DNA from: an uncultured Rhodobiaceae bacterium
GTDB taxonomy: Bacteria > Pseudomonadota > Alphaproteobacteria > RS24
Length of the DNA: 34,472 nt
Direction: 5' to 3'
Assembly (NCBI GenBank): GCA_937876775.1
Contig: CALEFA010000074.1
Span: forward strand, 1-34,472
The notes below the pieces were generated by a model. It had not been told where the DNA came from. It worked only from the letters and a program-made list of their open reading frames with translations, and made no database searches. Shown here piece by piece: positions 5,945-33,504 of the stretch (positions within the stretch are counted from its first letter, which is position 1; each line of letters opens with the position of its first letter). Position numbers and translations under genes: made by a program.

Positions 5945-8900
5945 TAATCAACCAGCCTTTCAAGCTTCTGACCCACATTATTCGGCGTGGGTAGCGGCCA
6001 ATGCCGGCTCCGGTAAGACGTTTGTTTTGGTGACGCGCTTGGTGCGCTTAATGTTGTCTGGCGTGGCTCCTGAAAAGCTCCTGTGCCTGACCTATACGCG
6101 CAGCGCAGCAGCTGAGATGCAAGACAGATTGTTTACCCTATTGGCAGAGTGGGCACTGCTTGACGATGCCGCATTGCATAAAGCCATTGGCGAGCGGCTT
6201 GGCACGCCGGACGACGAGCACGATTTACCATTGGCGCGCATGCTATTTGCCCGCGCGCTTGAAAGCCCGGGCGGCCTGCGCGTTCAGACCATTCACTCAT
6301 TTTGCGAAAGCCTGTTGAAACGGTTTCCATTGGAGGCTGGCCTGTCGCCACAGTTTGATTTGCTTGATGAGCAGGATGCGCAAGATTTGCAGGCGCAGAT
6401 TATTCGCCGACTTCTAAGCCACGAAGACGACACCGCCCTGCGCAGCGCCCTCGACGCTTTGACCCGACAATTGAGCGAGCCCGACCTTGATAAATTGGCG
6501 CATACCATTTTGTCACAACGCGATCATTTTGATACAGCGCGTCAGAGGGAGAATTTGAAGAAATTGGCTCAAAGCAGCGGCCTTGACCATTTGGACGAAG
6601 AAGCACGTAATCCAGAATCAATCGCTAACACCCATATGCAAGAATATACATCGCGCGCTTCGGAGTTGGCCAATTGGTTGGCAGCTTCAGAGCAAACAAC
6701 CAATCAGCAACGTGGCCACGACCTCGGCAAGTTCATCGACGCTATGGAAAATCAACAATTGCCACAAGCATGGGCGGCGTTGTCGCAGGTGTTCTTGACC
6801 GGCGATGGCAGTCCGCGCAAATCATTGGTCACTAAAACTTATGCCGAGAAACAGCCTAACTTGGCCGATGATTTGGTTCGCTGGGGGGAGCGATTTGACG
6901 AAGTCACAGCGCTATATCGCGCCAGTTTCACCTATCAAATGACACAAGCGCTTTATGTTTTTGCCGAGAGTCTCATCCGCGACTATGCCGCCGTGAAGGA
7001 TCAGCGTGGTGTATTGGATTACGATGATTTGATTTCTTGCACCAATCAAATGCTGTCACAAAAGCGCGCGGCTGCATGGGTTTTATTCAAGATTGACAAT
7101 GGCTTAGAGCATATTTTGGTGGATGAGGCGCAAGATACGAGTCCAGCCCAATGGCGGGTTATTCGCACGCTGGCCGATGAGTTTTTTGCTGGTGAGACGG
7201 CCAATCCGAAACAGCGAACGATTTTCGCCGTGGGCGATGAGAAACAATCAATCTTTAGTTTTCAAGGTGCTGATCCGGCTGGCTTTAATGCCCAATATGA
7301 ACATTTTAATGCGCAAGTTTCTGAGATTGGTGGCGCGGTCAATTATGTGCGTTTGCTCAATTCATGGCGCTCGGCGCCTGAGGTGCTGCAAGTGGTTGAT
7401 CAACTGTTTTCAACTTCTGAAACAGCGCGTGGTTTGTCGGCCGCTGGCGCGCCGACCGAACATATTGCCCAGCGTGATAAAGCGACCGGCTATGTTGCGT
7501 TATGGGAAGCTGAGCAGTCGACGCCGATAAGCGAGACTGACGAGGCCAGTGAGTTAACGGATATGCCGGTGGTTGATTTGCCGGAAACCACTAGACAGAA
7601 ACTAGCGCGTCGCATTGCAGATAAAATAGCAGCGTGGCAGGCCGATGCGACCTGTGATATCCGGCCAGGCGATATTTTAATCCTCGTACGCAAACGCGAT
7701 GATTTTGTCGACGATATGATCCGCGCACTAGATCGGCGCAATATTCGTGTCGCCGGTGCCGACCGCATGGTGTTGCTAGAGCAAATAGCTATTCTGGATT
7801 TAATGGCGGCGGCTGAATTTGCCCTCAATCCAAATGATGACTTAACTTTGGCCTGTTTTCTGCGCAGTCCCTTGGGAGGGCTAGATGAGACGGCACTGTT
7901 TGACTTGGCCTATGGCCGTTCAGGCAGTCTGTGGGCGGCGCTGAAGGCGGCGGTCGCGGCCGGTGGCGATGATAAACTGAAATCGGCGCATCAACGGCTC
8001 AGTTGGCTGTTGGCGCAAGTCGACTATTTGCGACCTTATGATTATTTTGCCCAATTACTAACGACACAAGATGGCCATGCATTGATGCGCGGGCGCTTGG
8101 GTACTGAAATTGACGATGCGATTGGCGAATTTTTGCGCCTCGCTTTGGTATTTGAAAGCCGCCATGTGGCTTCCATGCAGGGGTTTTTGCATTTTTTACG
8201 CCAAGGCCAGCAGACCATTAAACGCGATATGGAAAACCGCCAAGATGCGGTGCGAATTATGACCGTGCATGGCGCCAAGGGGCTGGAAGCGCCGATTGTG
8301 TTTTTGCCGGATACATGCTCGCGCCCAGGCGGCAGCGCCCAACGCGGTGTGGTGCAGATGGGACAGCAGAAAATACCTTTCTGGCGGGCCAATAGAAAAA
8401 TGCGCGAAGCCCATGGGCAGGCCGAGGAAGAAAATGCCATGCAGAGCGAGCAGGATGAGTCCAAGCGACTGCTCTATGTGGCGCTAACGCGGGCGCGCGA
8501 TCGGCTTTACATTGGCGGCTATTTGAATAAGCGGGCTAAGACCCCGCCAAAGGATTCGTGGTATCAAATGATTGCCGATGAATTGCAGAAAGATAAGAAC
8601 CTTGGCGAGGATATGGGCCGCCCCATTTGGTCGCTTGGCGATGAACACAAAGCGATGCCTGAGCGCAAAACAAATGACCAGCCGTCGATTGACCCTGGCC
8701 CTGCGCCATCTTGGGTTAGTAAAAAAATCTCTAAGCACGAAGCGCGCGAGAATATAAGGGCTGAGAAAATATTTGCCCCTTCAACCATAGCCTCGCCGTC
8801 GGCAAACACTGCGTCCAATAAGGGAGGCAATAACGAGGCTATGTTAGCGGGGCATATTAGCCATAGCCTGTTTGAGCATTTACCAGCTGTGCCAAAGGAT

Positions 8901-28076: not shown

Positions 28077-28760
28077 CTAGAAAAGGCGGATTTGTGAACC
28101 ATGTGGACGCGGTTTTTTGTGTTCATCTGGTAACTGGCATATGCGGTTCATGCGGGTCGTGCTTCCGTCAGCATATTCCCAAACCAGCTGTTCGCCCTCG
28201 CGATAGCGGCGCACCACCACTGGGCCCCAGCCAAACAGATGAAAATTGAGCACCTTGTCTTGCCAAATCATCGAGGCCGAGGTGCGCGGGCAATAGTCTT
28301 TGTTGCCAATAGAAAAAGTAACGCCGCCCTCTGTATCATTTGTGTTGAGGCCTGCCGTTTTATTGGGGCCGTAATCGTGAATGATGCCGCCCGCGGTAAT
28401 GACCGTTCGGTGACCGCATTGCTCAACCCGCTCAAGGTGACCGACTTTGCCGCTCACGCCTATCCACAGACCGCGAATATCGTCGGCCTCGGGCGGCAGG
28501 GGTTCAGTGCACGCTTGCAATATCGGTGACGGGAAGTGCGTATAGCCACACCCCGGCGTATTGCCTTTGGCAATTTCATTGGCTTGTTTGGCACTGCCAT
28601 CCAAGGGGGGGAGGCGGCAGTAATTGATCGTGCTACCGTCTCCGGCGAGCACGGTGGCATCAATGGTTAGGGGTGGCCGTGACGAAAAAAATGCCAGCCA
28701 AAATAGGAAAACGCAAAGGCTGAATAAAGAACCAAGGGAAATAATCAGAATGCGCTTCAT
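28077..28760 (-). CDS. Unknown exported or membrane-anchored protein with six extracytoplasmic cysteines
   Basis: 227 residues, function not recognised. The N-terminus MKRILIISLGSLFSLCVFLFWLAFF is a signal peptide or membrane anchor. The remaining ~200 residues have six cysteines (near 48, 71, 84, 115, 157 and 208), an even number compatible with three disulfides after export. The best conserved-looking stretches are DIRGLWIGVSGKVGHLERVEQCGHR with TAGGIIHDYG, and the C-terminal part GPVVVRRYREGEQLVWEYADGS, which reads like beta-strands. It is divergent from the long GST-like gene, and the shared promoter region carries the palindrome also found before the sulfatase. It is therefore inferred to belong to the same TetR regulon. 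The ribosome site is weak. Confidence 0.75.
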   Translation of the reverse strand: MKRILIISLGSLFSLCVFLFWLAFFSSRPPLTIDATVLAGDGSTINYCRLPPLDGSAKQANEIAKGNTPGCGYTHFPSPILQACTEPLPPEADDIRGLWIGVSGKVGHLERVEQCGHRTVITAGGIIHDYGPNKTAGLNTNDTEGGVTFSIGNKDYCPRTSASMIWQDKVLNFHLFGWGPVVVRRYREGEQLVWEYADGSTTRMNRICQLPDEHKKPRPHGSQIRLF

Positions 28761-28796: not shown

Positions 28797-28829
28797 CACA
28801 CTATAAATTGACATTTATAGTGTCAATAA
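28797..28829. promoter_or_regulatory. Operator A: shared TetR-type operator and divergent promoter
   Basis: The 19-bp imperfect palindrome TTGACATTTATAGTGTCAA spans 28808-28826. An overlapping perfect palindrome has arms ACACTATAAAT and ATTTATAGTGT (28798-28808 and 28813-28823). TTGACA is a consensus -35 on both strands. On the minus strand TAGTGT follows at spacing 17 and drives the unknown exported gene. On the plus strand TAATCT (spacing 17) or AATAAT (spacing 15) drives the GST-like gene. The 33-bp block matches operator B at 26 of 33 positions. Confidence 0.75.
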
Positions 28830-28889
28830 ATAATCTGGTGTCCTGTTGGCGACCTTAGTGCAAATCGCCCATCTGGCTTAGGAGACATT

Positions 28890-30035
28890 ATGGCTGACAA
28901 TTACAAACTTTTCACGTGGAGCGTGTCTTTATACTCGGGCAAGGCGCGTGCTTATCTCATTAAGCAGCATATTGACTTTGACGACATCTCGCCTGCCGAC
29001 CCGCATTATGAGGCGCACATCCGCCCTGCCATTGGGCGTTGGATTATTCCTGTCATGCAAACGCCAGATGGCGAGATTGTGCAAGATGGCACCGATATTA
29101 TCGATTGGTTTGAAAGCCGTGGAATGGCTCGGCTGCCAGCCTATCCACAAACGCCCAAGCACCTCATTAGCTCACTGATCATGGAAATGTTTGGTGGTGA
29201 GGGCATGCTGCGTCCGGCCATGCACTATAGGTGGAACTTTGATGCCGATAATCTCGATTTTATCTTGCAGCAATTTGGTTTGTTCGCCTTGCCGCAGGTA
29301 CCGCCCGCTGAACGCCGCGATATGGCCTTGCATGCGTCTGGACGCATGCGCAAAGCGGCGGTGATGTTCGGTGTCACACCAGAAACCGCGCCGCATATTG
29401 AGGCGGCCTATGAGGAGATGATGGGTGAACTTGACGCTCATTTTGCCGCTCACCCTTATCTTTTAGGCGGGACTCCGACGATTGGTGATTATGGTTTGTT
29501 TGCCTCACTTTACGCCCATTTGGGTCGCGATCCGCATCCCCTCAGAATGATGCAAGAGAAAGCGCAAATGTTATTCCGCTGGACTGAGCGCATGCGGAAC
29601 CCGAGCGCCGATATGGTCGAGTTTCTCAACTATCCTGAAACCTTGCTGGCGACCGATGCTATCCCCGACACGCTGAAGATATTGCTGCGCCGTGTTGCCT
29701 CTGACTATTTGCCTGAGATCCAAGCGATGGTTGCCATGAGCAATGAGTGGCTTTCGACGCATAAGCCAGCTGAAAACGAGGTCGTTGGCGGGCAAGGTCT
29801 GGGGCGTGGTTTGGGTATGTGCAGCTTTGAATGGCGCGGTCACAAGCTGGAAGTTATGGTCATGCCTTATCGTATTTTCATGCTTCAGCGCATTCAAGAC
29901 GCCTATGATGGGCTCGATTCAGAAAGTCAAAAAGCTGTCGATACGCTATTGGCGGAAACCGGTCTCGCGGCCATTCTCACAACCCGCTCAATACGGCGCG
30001 TGGAACGTAAAAACAATCGCGAGGTCTGGGTCTAA
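28890..30035 (+). CDS. Glutathione S-transferase-like protein with an extra C-terminal domain
   Basis: 381 residues, against ~200-230 for ordinary GSTs. Residues ~1-85 are a thioredoxin-fold GST domain (LFTWSVSLYSGKARAYLIKQ, WIIPVMQTPDGEIVQDGTDIIDWFE with the cis-Pro and the D-I substrate-side motif). Residues ~90-240 are the helical domain, with YLLGGTPTIGDYGLFASLYAH as the N-capping motif. Residues ~250-381 (SDYLPEIQAMVAMSNEWLS to the end) match nothing I can name. It may conjugate or reduce an unknown electrophile; the serine of SVSLYSGK could be the activating residue. The start has TAGGAG six bases upstream. Expression from operator A links it to the sulfatase operon. Confidence 0.82.
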   Translation: MADNYKLFTWSVSLYSGKARAYLIKQHIDFDDISPADPHYEAHIRPAIGRWIIPVMQTPDGEIVQDGTDIIDWFESRGMARLPAYPQTPKHLISSLIMEMFGGEGMLRPAMHYRWNFDADNLDFILQQFGLFALPQVPPAERRDMALHASGRMRKAAVMFGVTPETAPHIEAAYEEMMGELDAHFAAHPYLLGGTPTIGDYGLFASLYAHLGRDPHPLRMMQEKAQMLFRWTERMRNPSADMVEFLNYPETLLATDAIPDTLKILLRRVASDYLPEIQAMVAMSNEWLSTHKPAENEVVGGQGLGRGLGMCSFEWRGHKLEVMVMPYRIFMLQRIQDAYDGLDSESQKAVDTLLAETGLAAILTTRSIRRVERKNNREVWV

Positions 30036-30040
30036 TCTGC

Positions 30041-30979
30041 CTAGCCAATTTCGTGCAAGAAAGCCAATAGCGCGGTGGCGTATTCCTCGTGCATGTCCTC
30101 GACAAGAAAATGGCTGCCGCCGGATAGAATAACCGGCTCCCGTTGCGCGGCCGCAGGAATGAATTGGCGCACGCTTTGATGGCCGTTTGGGGCAACAATG
30201 TCCTTATCTGAATAAAGGCACAGAAATGGTTTTTCGAAAGATGCCAGTTTTTGCCGCGCATAAAAATTATCGACCAGCATGGGATTGTCAAAACGTGTCG
30301 GCAACATTTGTGTGAATTGCCGATTGCCGGTCAAATAACGAAAATTCGGATATGGCGCAGCGTAACCGGCAACCACTTGTTTCGATAATTTTGATGTGCA
30401 AATCGCAGCAAGCATTTTCCAGTGTCGCCAGAACAGGTTTAGGCGCACATAGAGCTGAAATTTGCGCAAAAACCCCGACCCCGGCATTGCCATATTATCT
30501 ATCTTTTGCTGCGGATCGCGCACTGGAAACCCGGTATTGGAAAAAGTGATGCTGGCAATCCGATCTTGACGTGTGGCCGCCACACGCAGTCCGATTATCC
30601 CACCCCAATCATGCAGCACTAAATGCGCATCGTTTAGCTTGAGTTTGTCAAATAATGCTTCGCGCACCCATGCCTCGTGCCGCGCAATCGTATAATCGCG
30701 CATGCGGGTCGGTTTATCCGATCGCCCCATGCCAATTAAATCAATCGCAATGGCTCGATAGCCGGCATCTCCCAAGGCGCGAACGACTTTGCGCCACATG
30801 AAAGACCAAGTCGGATTGCCGTGAATCATGACCACCGGCTGACCATCGCTCGGCCCATGTTCGATATAATGCATATCCAAATTTCCACCATCTTGGTCAT
30901 CAAGCGTCACAAAATGCGGCGCGAAATCATAATCAGGCAAATGGTTGAAACAGTGGTCGGGGGTCTTGCGTATTTTCAT
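30041..30979 (-). CDS. Haloalkane dehalogenase-like alpha/beta hydrolase
   Basis: About 312 residues from ATG 30979, which gives the family-like N-terminus KIRKTPDHCFNHLPDYDFAPHF; a GTG at 30994 is possible. Features are MIHGNPTWSFMWR (oxyanion and halide Asn near 55), the nucleophile elbow LVLHDWGG (Asp124 and Trp125), the acid in LYSDKDIVAP and the base in SGGSHFLVED (His290). Haloalkane dehalogenases convert R-X to R-OH and halide. The cap segment GSGFLRKFQLYV has no tryptophan where HLD-I enzymes carry the second halide-binding Trp; the nearest are at about 184 and 187. OleB-type beta-lactone decarboxylases share HGNPTWS and HDWGG, so dehalogenation is not proven. It is the third gene of the sulfatase-tetR operon. 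Confidence 0.8.
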   Translation of the reverse strand: MKIRKTPDHCFNHLPDYDFAPHFVTLDDQDGGNLDMHYIEHGPSDGQPVVMIHGNPTWSFMWRKVVRALGDAGYRAIAIDLIGMGRSDKPTRMRDYTIARHEAWVREALFDKLKLNDAHLVLHDWGGIIGLRVAATRQDRIASITFSNTGFPVRDPQQKIDNMAMPGSGFLRKFQLYVRLNLFWRHWKMLAAICTSKLSKQVVAGYAAPYPNFRYLTGNRQFTQMLPTRFDNPMLVDNFYARQKLASFEKPFLCLYSDKDIVAPNGHQSVRQFIPAAAQREPVILSGGSHFLVEDMHEEYATALLAFLHEIG

Positions 30980-31028
30980 CGTCAGATGGCTCACTTTTCA
31001 GGTCAATATGTTTTGCATTACGGTGTTC

Positions 31029-31038
31029 GAACCGGTTC
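31029..31038. repeat. Perfect palindrome in the tetR-hydrolase gap
   Basis: GAACCGGTTC is a perfect 10-bp palindrome in the gap between the TetR stop and the hydrolase start. It does not resemble operators A and B. It could be an mRNA hairpin or chance. Confidence 0.25.
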
Positions 31039-31049
31039 ATTAAAGAGGC

Positions 31050-31661
31050 TCAAGCCAAGCTTGCCTTAATGCCATGGCTGTCGAAAAACCCAGCTATAAG
31101 TGCGGCCAAGATATTTTTGCTTTCGCGCACGCCCAGTTTTTGTTGGTGACGTAAGCGGTGCCACATGTCGAAAGAAGTGAGCGCATCCAACCCTTCTAAG
31201 ACCGCTGGCGGGTGCGGCTCAACTTCCGGAAACCAGCTTAAAGTGAGCTCGCGTAATTTATTCTGGTCGCGCGTATAGCTTTGGCGCAATGTCGGCGAAC
31301 GCCATAATTGTGCCTGTGTCGATAGAAAAATATTGTTCAAATGCTCATAGGCTGTCGCCTGATTATCTAGAAAAGTCTCGATACGTTGGGTCATGTCGCC
31401 ATAGCCTTCGCCACGCGGGAATAAGGACATAAAATTGTCACGCGCGTAGAAATCGACCGCCGCAAACAAGGCTTCCATATCGTCGAAATGGCGGAAAAAA
31501 GAACGCAGACCGACTCCGGCCTTATCGGCAATTTGCTTGGCCGTCGGCACCAATAGGCCTTGGTCGATGAGTTCCAGTGCGGCTTTAATGAGTGCCTCGC
31601 GCGACCGCGCGCTTCTTTGACGGCGACCATCAACTAAAACCAGATTGGGATTTTCATTCAT
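31050..31661 (-). CDS. TetR/AcrR-family transcriptional regulator
   Basis: 203 residues. The N-terminal helix-turn-helix domain covers about 16-64: SREALIKAALELIDQGLLVPTAKQIADKAGVGLRSFFRHFDDMEALF, with the recognition helix in GVGLRSFFRHF. The rest is a helical ligand-binding and dimerisation domain with no recognisable ligand. It starts 15 bases after the sulfatase stop (ribosome site GAGAGG) and precedes the hydrolase by 55 bases, so it is probably made from the sulfatase promoter, where operator B would allow autoregulation. The 19-bp palindromes at A and B are of a size typical of TetR operators. Repressor rather than activator action is inferred from overlap with the -35 boxes. Confidence 0.88.
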   Translation of the reverse strand: MNENPNLVLVDGRRQRSARSREALIKAALELIDQGLLVPTAKQIADKAGVGLRSFFRHFDDMEALFAAVDFYARDNFMSLFPRGEGYGDMTQRIETFLDNQATAYEHLNNIFLSTQAQLWRSPTLRQSYTRDQNKLRELTLSWFPEVEPHPPAVLEGLDALTSFDMWHRLRHQQKLGVRESKNILAALIAGFFDSHGIKASLA

Positions 31662-31676
31662 ATGGACCTCTCAGGG

Positions 31677-33356
31677 CTAGTTAGGCCAGTAAATATAATC
31701 ATCGTCGAGGCTCAAATTGTCGGCCGGCGTTTTGTCAATCCAGATGGGTATAGACACGCGCGACGTCCACATTGGCTCCGCTTGCTGTTTGTTATGCGCG
31801 TCCAGCATGGCCATTAACGCGCCGACTTTTTTAGGGTTTTGCGCACTGACCTCGTTTTGCTCAAACGGGTCCTCGGTCATATTGAACAGGCGAATTTTTT
31901 GTGGATCCATGCTGCGCTGCAATTTCCAACCGCCTGACATAATTGCTTGGTAATGGCCCTCGCGCCAAATCAATGTTTTATGCGGGCGGCCAGTTTTACG
32001 ACCGGTGAGATATGGCAGTAAGTTCACTCCATCCATCACTTTGGCTTGCGGCGTCAATCCGGCCGCGCCGAGCGCCGTTGGCATAATGTCGAGATGCGAC
32101 ACTGCATGCGGATAGGTTCGGCCGCCGTTTAATGCTTGCGGCCAGCGCATGACATAGGGGATATGCGTGCCGCCTTCGAAGAAACTCAGTTTCCAGCCGC
32201 GATAGGGCTTATTGATGTCGGGCATGCCAATATAATTAGCGCCACCATTATCGCTGGTGAAAATGACAAGCGTATTATCATCCAGCCCATTGTCTTTCAG
32301 TGCCTGCATGAGCTTGCCGACCGAACGATCAACGGCACGAATCATGGCGGCATAGACGCGGGTGCGGTGATTGGGGAAGTTATTGCCGACTGCTTCAAAA
32401 TCGTCTTTTGTAGCTTGTAATGGTGTGTGAATGCCCCAATGCGCCAGATAGAGAAAAAACGGCCGGTCCTTATTGGCGCCGATGGCCTTTACCGCTTCAT
32501 CGGTATAATAGTCGGTCAAATAGCCTTTCGGACGAAAATTATCGCTTCGATTGAAGCTTGCTGAATAGTCCAACACCTCCCATTGCACGCTGTCGAGAAT
32601 AGCAAATTCATTGCGCGCATTGACCACCTCCGGATCGTCAATCGGCAGATACAAACCGCTTGCCATCAGCAGACTTTCATCAAACCCCTGATCCAGCGGG
32701 TGCATGCCCGAACTACGTCCCAAATGCCACTTGCCGATATGTAGATTGTGATATCCGGCGCGCTTTAACTCCTCGGCTAAGGTAATTTCGCTGCTCGGCA
32801 TACCTTTGGCTTCGTAGGGCATATTGTGATTGGCATGAGGGTCATCAGCATGCACCTCATGAAATTTGAAGTTGCGCGGCGCTGGGTCGTCTTTGCTTAA
32901 TTGTTGCAGAATTGGAGCGAACGCATCGGGGGTAGGGGTAAATTCAAAGCCGAAACGGGTCGCATAACGGCCAGTTAGCAACATGGCCCGCGATGGAGAA
33001 CAAACCGCACTGCCGGCATAGCCATTGGCGAAGCGCACACCTTCGGCCCCCAACCGGTCAATATGTGGTGTCTCAATCAAGCCACCGCCATACAGGCTCA
33101 CATCGTTAAAGCCCATATCATCGGTCAGGATGACAATAATATTGGGGGGGCGTTTTTCGCCTTTTTCCCAAACGCCGGTCTGCCAGTTAATGGCGCGGTA
33201 TGGTGCCACCGGATTGTTCATCTTCTGGAGAAAGCCGACGGTTTTTATGATGAGCGTCGTGCGGTTGGCAAAGCCCATGCCCACGAGACTGACGAGCACG
33301 AGGGCGGCTATTAAATAACCCTTCTTGCGGCGGCTGAGTTGCGTCCAAAAAGTCAT
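31677..33356 (-). CDS. Membrane-anchored or exported type I sulfatase (formylglycine, Cys type)
   Basis: 559 residues. Residues ~10-30 (KKGYLIAALVLVSLVGMGFA) are a signal anchor or uncleaved signal peptide, so the catalytic domain should face the periplasm. The active site VCSPSRAMLLTGR (Cys119 in C-x-P-S-R) needs conversion to formylglycine. Calcium ligands are Asp79-Asp80 in IIVILTDDMGFNDVSLYGG and the pair in IFTSDNGGANY. HIGKWHLG and the lysine/histidine motifs of the alkaline-phosphatase superfamily are present. It removes sulfate from an unknown sulfate ester. No maturase gene (FGE or anSME) is in the window. AAGGAG lies 8 bases before the ATG. It heads an apparent operon with tetR and the hydrolase. 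Confidence 0.92.
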   Translation of the reverse strand: MTFWTQLSRRKKGYLIAALVLVSLVGMGFANRTTLIIKTVGFLQKMNNPVAPYRAINWQTGVWEKGEKRPPNIIVILTDDMGFNDVSLYGGGLIETPHIDRLGAEGVRFANGYAGSAVCSPSRAMLLTGRYATRFGFEFTPTPDAFAPILQQLSKDDPAPRNFKFHEVHADDPHANHNMPYEAKGMPSSEITLAEELKRAGYHNLHIGKWHLGRSSGMHPLDQGFDESLLMASGLYLPIDDPEVVNARNEFAILDSVQWEVLDYSASFNRSDNFRPKGYLTDYYTDEAVKAIGANKDRPFFLYLAHWGIHTPLQATKDDFEAVGNNFPNHRTRVYAAMIRAVDRSVGKLMQALKDNGLDDNTLVIFTSDNGGANYIGMPDINKPYRGWKLSFFEGGTHIPYVMRWPQALNGGRTYPHAVSHLDIMPTALGAAGLTPQAKVMDGVNLLPYLTGRKTGRPHKTLIWREGHYQAIMSGGWKLQRSMDPQKIRLFNMTEDPFEQNEVSAQNPKKVGALMAMLDAHNKQQAEPMWTSRVSIPIWIDKTPADNLSLDDDYIYWPN

Positions 33357-33376
33357 TGCGACTCTCCTTTTGCCGT

Positions 33377-33409
33377 CAGCCTATAAATTGGCATTATAAA
33401 TGTCAATAA
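33377..33409 (-). promoter_or_regulatory. Operator B: sulfatase-operon promoter with TetR-type palindrome
   Basis: On the minus strand a consensus -35 TTGACA (33406-33401) is followed after 17 bases by TAGGCT (33383-33378) as -10. The overlapping 19-bp palindrome on the plus strand is TTGGCATTATAAATGTCAA (33388-33406), arms matching at 6 of 7. The 33-bp block equals operator A at 26 of 33 positions, in the orientation that drives the unknown exported gene. A TATAAT also sits within the palindrome but has no -35. Confidence 0.75.
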
Positions 33410-33504
33410 GTGTCGCTGTCTGGAAAAACGCCATGCACAAGCACGCCGCCTGCGACGCCTTTATCCTTTTGCGCTTTATTGCAAAGCCTTACTAACGGGC
33501 CTTA

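Follow-up and report, generated by a model that had tools for sequence, protein, structure and literature searches.

What regulates the genes that surround two similar 33-bp blocks in the genome of an uncultured Rhodobiaceae bacterium, and does the TetR-family protein encoded between the blocks act at both of them? The window, a stretch of 34,472 nucleotides, belongs to a genome of 1,717,328 bases in 80 contigs (G000), and a sequence-only reading of it had proposed that the blocks are copies of one promoter-operator defining a TetR regulon. Motif, spacing, conservation, TetR co-occurrence and promoter overlap were observed in the sequence. The blocks are very probably operators of the 31050–31661 protein, which would be an autoregulated repressor that blocks RNA polymerase and is released by a ligand.

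Both read on the plus strand, the blocks at 28797–28829 and 33377–33409 agree at 26 of 33 positions and are thus direct repeats; the coordinates and the number of matches given earlier stand. When the 19-bp cores are aligned on opposite strands, 17 of 19 positions still agree. Each block contains the palindrome ascribed to it, an exact TTGRCAT-N5-RTGTCAA at 28808–28826 and at 33388–33406. The placement was also read correctly: one site precedes sulfatase-tetR-hydrolase, the other lies between the long GST and exported-protein genes, and the gene and domain listing of the window has tetR as the sole regulator gene between them. The next-best 33-mer match to either site elsewhere in the window reaches 20 of 33. 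With up to three mismatches allowed, the short pattern is found 16 times in the window against 11.6 expected, which is not above chance, and the extended motif was therefore used instead. This pattern of 27 bases, with at most three mismatches, occurs nowhere in the 1.72-Mb genome but at the two sites, and its reversed-pattern control has zero matches there. An apparent additional hairpin of 11 bp within site 1 (ACACTATAAAT-TGAC-ATTTATAGTGT) lacks conservation in relatives and was set aside. The features of the locus are:

28077–28760, minus strand: exported protein, predicted regulon member, no Pfam or NCBIfam match
28798–28826, minus strand: predicted promoter toward the exported protein (−35 TTGACA at 28826–28821, 17-bp spacer, −10 TAGTGT at 28803–28798)
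28803–28831, no strand: putative operator 1, a 29-bp extended palindrome (core 28808–28826) in the divergent promoter-operator of the exported-protein and long GST genes; identical 29-mer in G002
28808–28836, plus strand: predicted promoter toward the long GST (−35 TTGACA at 28808–28813, 17-bp spacer, −10 TAATCT at 28831–28836)
28890–30035, plus strand: long GST-family protein, 381 aa, predicted regulon member (Pfam GST_N_3/GST_C_2)
30041–30994, minus strand: haloalkane-dehalogenase-like alpha/beta hydrolase, predicted regulon member (NCBIfam NF002043, 299.3 bits, cutoff 265)
31050–31661, minus strand: TetR-family regulator, 203 aa, candidate repressor for the two sites (Pfam TetR_N, 33.8 bits, cutoff 24)
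31677–33356, minus strand: type I (Cys, CSPSR) sulfatase, predicted regulon member (Pfam Sulfatase PF00884, 197 bits)
33378–33406, minus strand: predicted promoter of the sulfatase-tetR-hydrolase operon (−35 TTGACA at 33406–33401, 17-bp spacer, −10 TAGGCT at 33383–33378)
33383–33411, no strand: putative operator 2, a 29-bp extended palindrome (core 33388–33406) upstream of sulfatase-tetR-hydrolase

The TetR protein carries its helix-turn-helix (TetR_N, PF00440) at the N-terminus, in residues 24–69. This domain is 67–72% identical to that of family orthologues and the remainder 31–39%; the C-terminal region is highly diverged, with 19–39% identity outside the genus, and the G002 protein is 86% identical to that of the window. 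The recognition-helix stretch GLRSFFRHF is invariant among family TetRs with the strict motif. The G008 protein has GIRTVFRQF instead, and the variant site of G008 has an altered flank, ATATTATGACAT. Among solved structures none is close to the protein, the best match (5e-7) being at the general TetR level only.

In relatives from the same alphaproteobacterial family the palindrome sharpens to ATAAATTGACAY-N5-RTGTCAATTTAT, which with up to three mismatches is present in 14 of 28 family genomes, the reversed-pattern control giving zero. Nearly all of these copies adjoin the orthologous genes for the sulfatase, the long GST, TetR, the hydrolase and the exported protein. Loci that keep the genes and lack the palindrome were named beforehand as a refutation, and all 11 family genomes whose TetR is 43% or more identical keep it at these genes. 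The complete relative G006 has a GST gene 74% identical to that of the window but neither a TetR match nor a palindrome, and a second GST and hydrolase copy in G013, away from tetR, also has no palindrome. Gene order varies, with operons rearranged in G013, G021 and G026, and each separated promoter in the DNA examined has its own site. In G019 a site lies at a contig end that truncates the sulfatase, so that its tetR may be outside the assembly. G002 has a second, identical operator copy (C40; L115, 886–914) flanked by an exported-protein paralogue and an amidase gene; a CoA ligase gene comes next.

An unbiased association was obtained by searching 144 relatives for the core ATTGRCAYNNNNNRTGYCAAT without reference to tetR. 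The core is present in 15 of the 144 genomes, and the reversed-pattern control in none. A TetR relative, defined as a match at E 1e-18 or better, is encoded in 14 of the 15 core-positive genomes versus 6 of the 129 others (Fisher p=6e-14); the remaining positive genome is truncated at the end of a contig. Shared ancestry among the genomes means that the within-family p values exaggerate independence. Outside the family, the core is found in only 3 of 116 genomes (G036, G117 and G142). Seven of the 116 encode a TetR relative, and these three are among them (p=1.4e-4). G008, G030, G068, G078 and G092 have a TetR relative without the exact core, which is consistent with diverged recognition, G008 retaining its variant. 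The search also located sites before a hydrolase-sulfatase pair (G001, C8) and before a second sulfatase gene (G023, C182). In G019 (C9; L244, 1501–1552) an exact-core site stands directly before a gene of 490 or more codons whose start looks PHP-like or DUF3604-like, a label read from the sequence; a GST gene and a thioesterase-like gene lie upstream of it.

When named genomes were scanned with the TetR alignment, relatives numbered in the hundreds, and the best of them came from Halieaceae, Luminiphilus, Porticoccaceae/SAR92 and other groups. The cultured strains Zhongshania antarctica DSM 25701 and Seongchinamella unica GH4-78 are among the relatives with sites close to tetR. The search for the palindrome near orthologues that had been recommended found the core TGRCAY-N5-RTGYCA in 44 of 74 gammaproteobacterial TetR loci; the other 30 are without an exact core in the locus DNA examined, which counts against the operator reading. 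The 44 loci hold 65 exact cores, and 57 of these are intergenic. Permuted half-sites, 719 in all, average 1.3, and their largest count, 35, came from a near-variant of the motif. Only the 5-bp spacing is enriched: a spacing of 4 gives 12 (one outside genes) and all others at most 3. A matrix trained on alphaproteobacterial sites only yields 39 matches in the same 74 loci versus 0.03 for permuted matrices. Most sites lie 0–170 bp before the starts of sulfatase, GST, MBL, DUF1330, DJ-1, hydrolase and tetR genes. The neighborhoods have in common the families of the sulfatase, the MBL-fold hydrolase, the long GST, the DsbA-domain protein, the second GST, the second sulfatase, the hydrolase, the exported protein and enoyl-CoA hydratase. 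A recurrent marine gammaproteobacterial tetR cluster (L142–L220) comprises an MBL-fold hydrolase, two sulfatases, two long GSTs, DUF1330, a DsbA-domain protein of 459 aa, DUF4345 and nitronate monooxygenase. In these comparisons the link between site and TetR holds in three further alphaproteobacterial families and in Gammaproteobacteria, the out-of-family and gammaproteobacterial tests being stronger than the one within the family.

The regulon predicted from these motifs is wider than the two window sites. Two other exact short cores occur in the window's genome, of which that at C63:89984 falls inside a frame of 1238 aa and was set aside. The other, at C63:110103–110121 (L117, about 6104–6122), is a third, weaker site that lies before a DUF1330-GST2 operon, with an RND-type HlyD gene on its other side; it is conserved in G001 and G002 and probably belongs to the regulon. 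Variant palindromes of the form TTGGCAC-N5-CGCCAA precede GST2 in G016 (L134) and G025 (L129, L074), two incomplete assemblies in which no TetR relative was detected, and these weaker variants make the assignment of the third site less certain. Another regulator would account for them, as would a contig absent from the assemblies.

The same variants, along with one weaker extended-motif match in G025, are what favors a different regulator at the palindromes generally, be it another TetR, a MarR or a GntR protein encoded elsewhere in the genome, with tetR a mere neighbor. This is unlikely, as the presence of sites tracks that of a TetR relative over the 144 genomes, the link spans two classes whose gene order otherwise differs, and G006, with its GST gene, is without both.

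How the TetR protein would act is suggested by the promoters. The TTGACA and the TAG-starting −10 at 17-bp spacing reported earlier are indeed found, as TTGACA-N17-TAGNNT, on the minus strand at each site, with TTGACA..TAGTGT at site 1 and TTGACA..TAGGCT at site 2. Site 1 has an additional, previously overlooked promoter on the plus strand toward the GST gene, TTGACA-N17-TAATCT. The opposite strand of site 2 faces no gene and retains only degraded signals (TTGGCA..TGTCGC), a decay that speaks for a promoter and for an operator alike. Among alphaproteobacterial sites, TTGACA-N17-TANNNT stands on 19 of 26 gene-facing strands, and the palindrome there is predicted to be a two-way promoter, possible on both strands because the two half-sites supply both −35 hexamers. 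In the wider set the AT arms of the palindrome itself cause spacings of 13 and 15 to score as well. On either strand the conserved palindrome extends over the predicted −35 hexamer and the spacer, the arrangement expected of an operator placed over a promoter.

That the protein binds, that it represses and does not activate, that a ligand releases it and what this ligand is are all predicted. A TetR dimer, or two, would bind the palindrome; with the −35 hexamers of both strands inside the half-sites and the outer AT arms adjoining the −10 hexamers, the bound protein would keep RNA polymerase off the promoter or promoters. Repression at site 2 would cover sulfatase-tetR-hydrolase and so make the repressor autoregulated, while site 1 would repress the divergent long GST and exported-protein genes jointly. 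A small molecule, probably the pathway substrate or a breakdown product, would bind the diverged C-terminal domain and release the DNA.

Some TetR-family proteins act as activators, and with that precedent the regulator might bind the same sites as an activator or dual regulator. A palindrome that lies over the −35 hexamer and the spacer on each strand fits occlusion, and this mode of action is a little less probable even than a different regulator.

More improbable again is that the blocks resemble each other as two strong sigma-70 promoters (TTGACA with an AT-rich −10), or through recent duplication, with no operator at all. The motif does include promoter elements, with a consensus −35, and a 29-bp symmetric promoter is palindromic partly for promoter reasons, which counts against the operator reading; the second copy in G002 beside the exported-protein paralogue shows that local duplication occurs. 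Against this, conservation across two classes extends to the palindrome spaced by exactly 5 bp and to no other spacing, two-fold symmetry is retained in gammaproteobacterial sites before Sulf1 where just one side faces a gene, and such promoters are absent from relatives without TetR. Repression by the TetR protein at these operators remains the preferred reading.

The genes themselves give indications of function. The sulfatase is of the formylglycine type, having a Sulfatase domain and the CxPSR maturation motif as CSPSR, and its closest solved relatives are carrageenan sulfatases; no glycoside hydrolases are among the common neighbor genes examined. The hydrolase at 30041–30994 combines a curated family score with an HDWGG nucleophile motif (Asp), which predicts a haloalkane dehalogenase. 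No solved relative of the long GST was found in the structure search. The exported protein is 64–86% identical between Alpha- and Gammaproteobacteria, a higher conservation than that of the TetR, and its AlphaFold model is poor (mean pLDDT 48.7).

BetI, of the TetR family, regulates choline-O-sulfate genes as described in PMC12442346, and the link of such a regulator to a sulfatase in Alphaproteobacteria is shared by the window, where the two genes are adjacent. An identity with that system was rejected as exceedingly improbable, since the sulfatase scores 128.7 bits versus the choline-sulfatase cutoff of 433.45 (TIGR03417), the regulator has no BetI match, both proteins fall below curated cutoffs, and the other genes differ, with no choline genes among the common neighbors.

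The TetR–tetO type is another close parallel, alike in an N-terminal TetR_N helix-turn-helix, a length of about 200 aa, divergent transcription and, as predicted here, a palindromic operator overlapping −35 and −10 and a tetR under its own operator. The gene set differs, being of the sulfatase/GST/dehalogenase-like kind rather than efflux. TetR autorepression at divergent promoters is textbook knowledge, and the system is a further TetR-family case of familiar design, an unusually well-defined marine regulon. The open-access literature, to which the search was confined, yielded no description of the TetR subfamily, the operator TGRCAY-N5-RTGYCA, the gene cluster or a cross-class regulon.

Our guess is that the substrate of the regulon is a sulfated, possibly halogenated hydrophobic compound. 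It is a long shot that the TetR subfamily senses, and the regulon degrades, a marine metabolite bearing sulfate esters and halogens, such as an algal chlorosulfolipid-like compound, by a route that would employ the sulfatase, the haloalkane-dehalogenase-like hydrolase, glutathione transferases and the MBL-fold hydrolase. If so, the conserved operator would mark an undescribed pathway in abundant marine bacteria. A precise operator and a candidate repressor are now available for a gene set that recurs in mostly uncultured marine bacteria, among them the Rhodobiaceae-like alphaproteobacterial family, Halieaceae/NOR5 and SAR92 relatives. The operator may be used to list the full regulon in any genome, and reporter screens for the inducer may lead from there to the substrate of the pathway.
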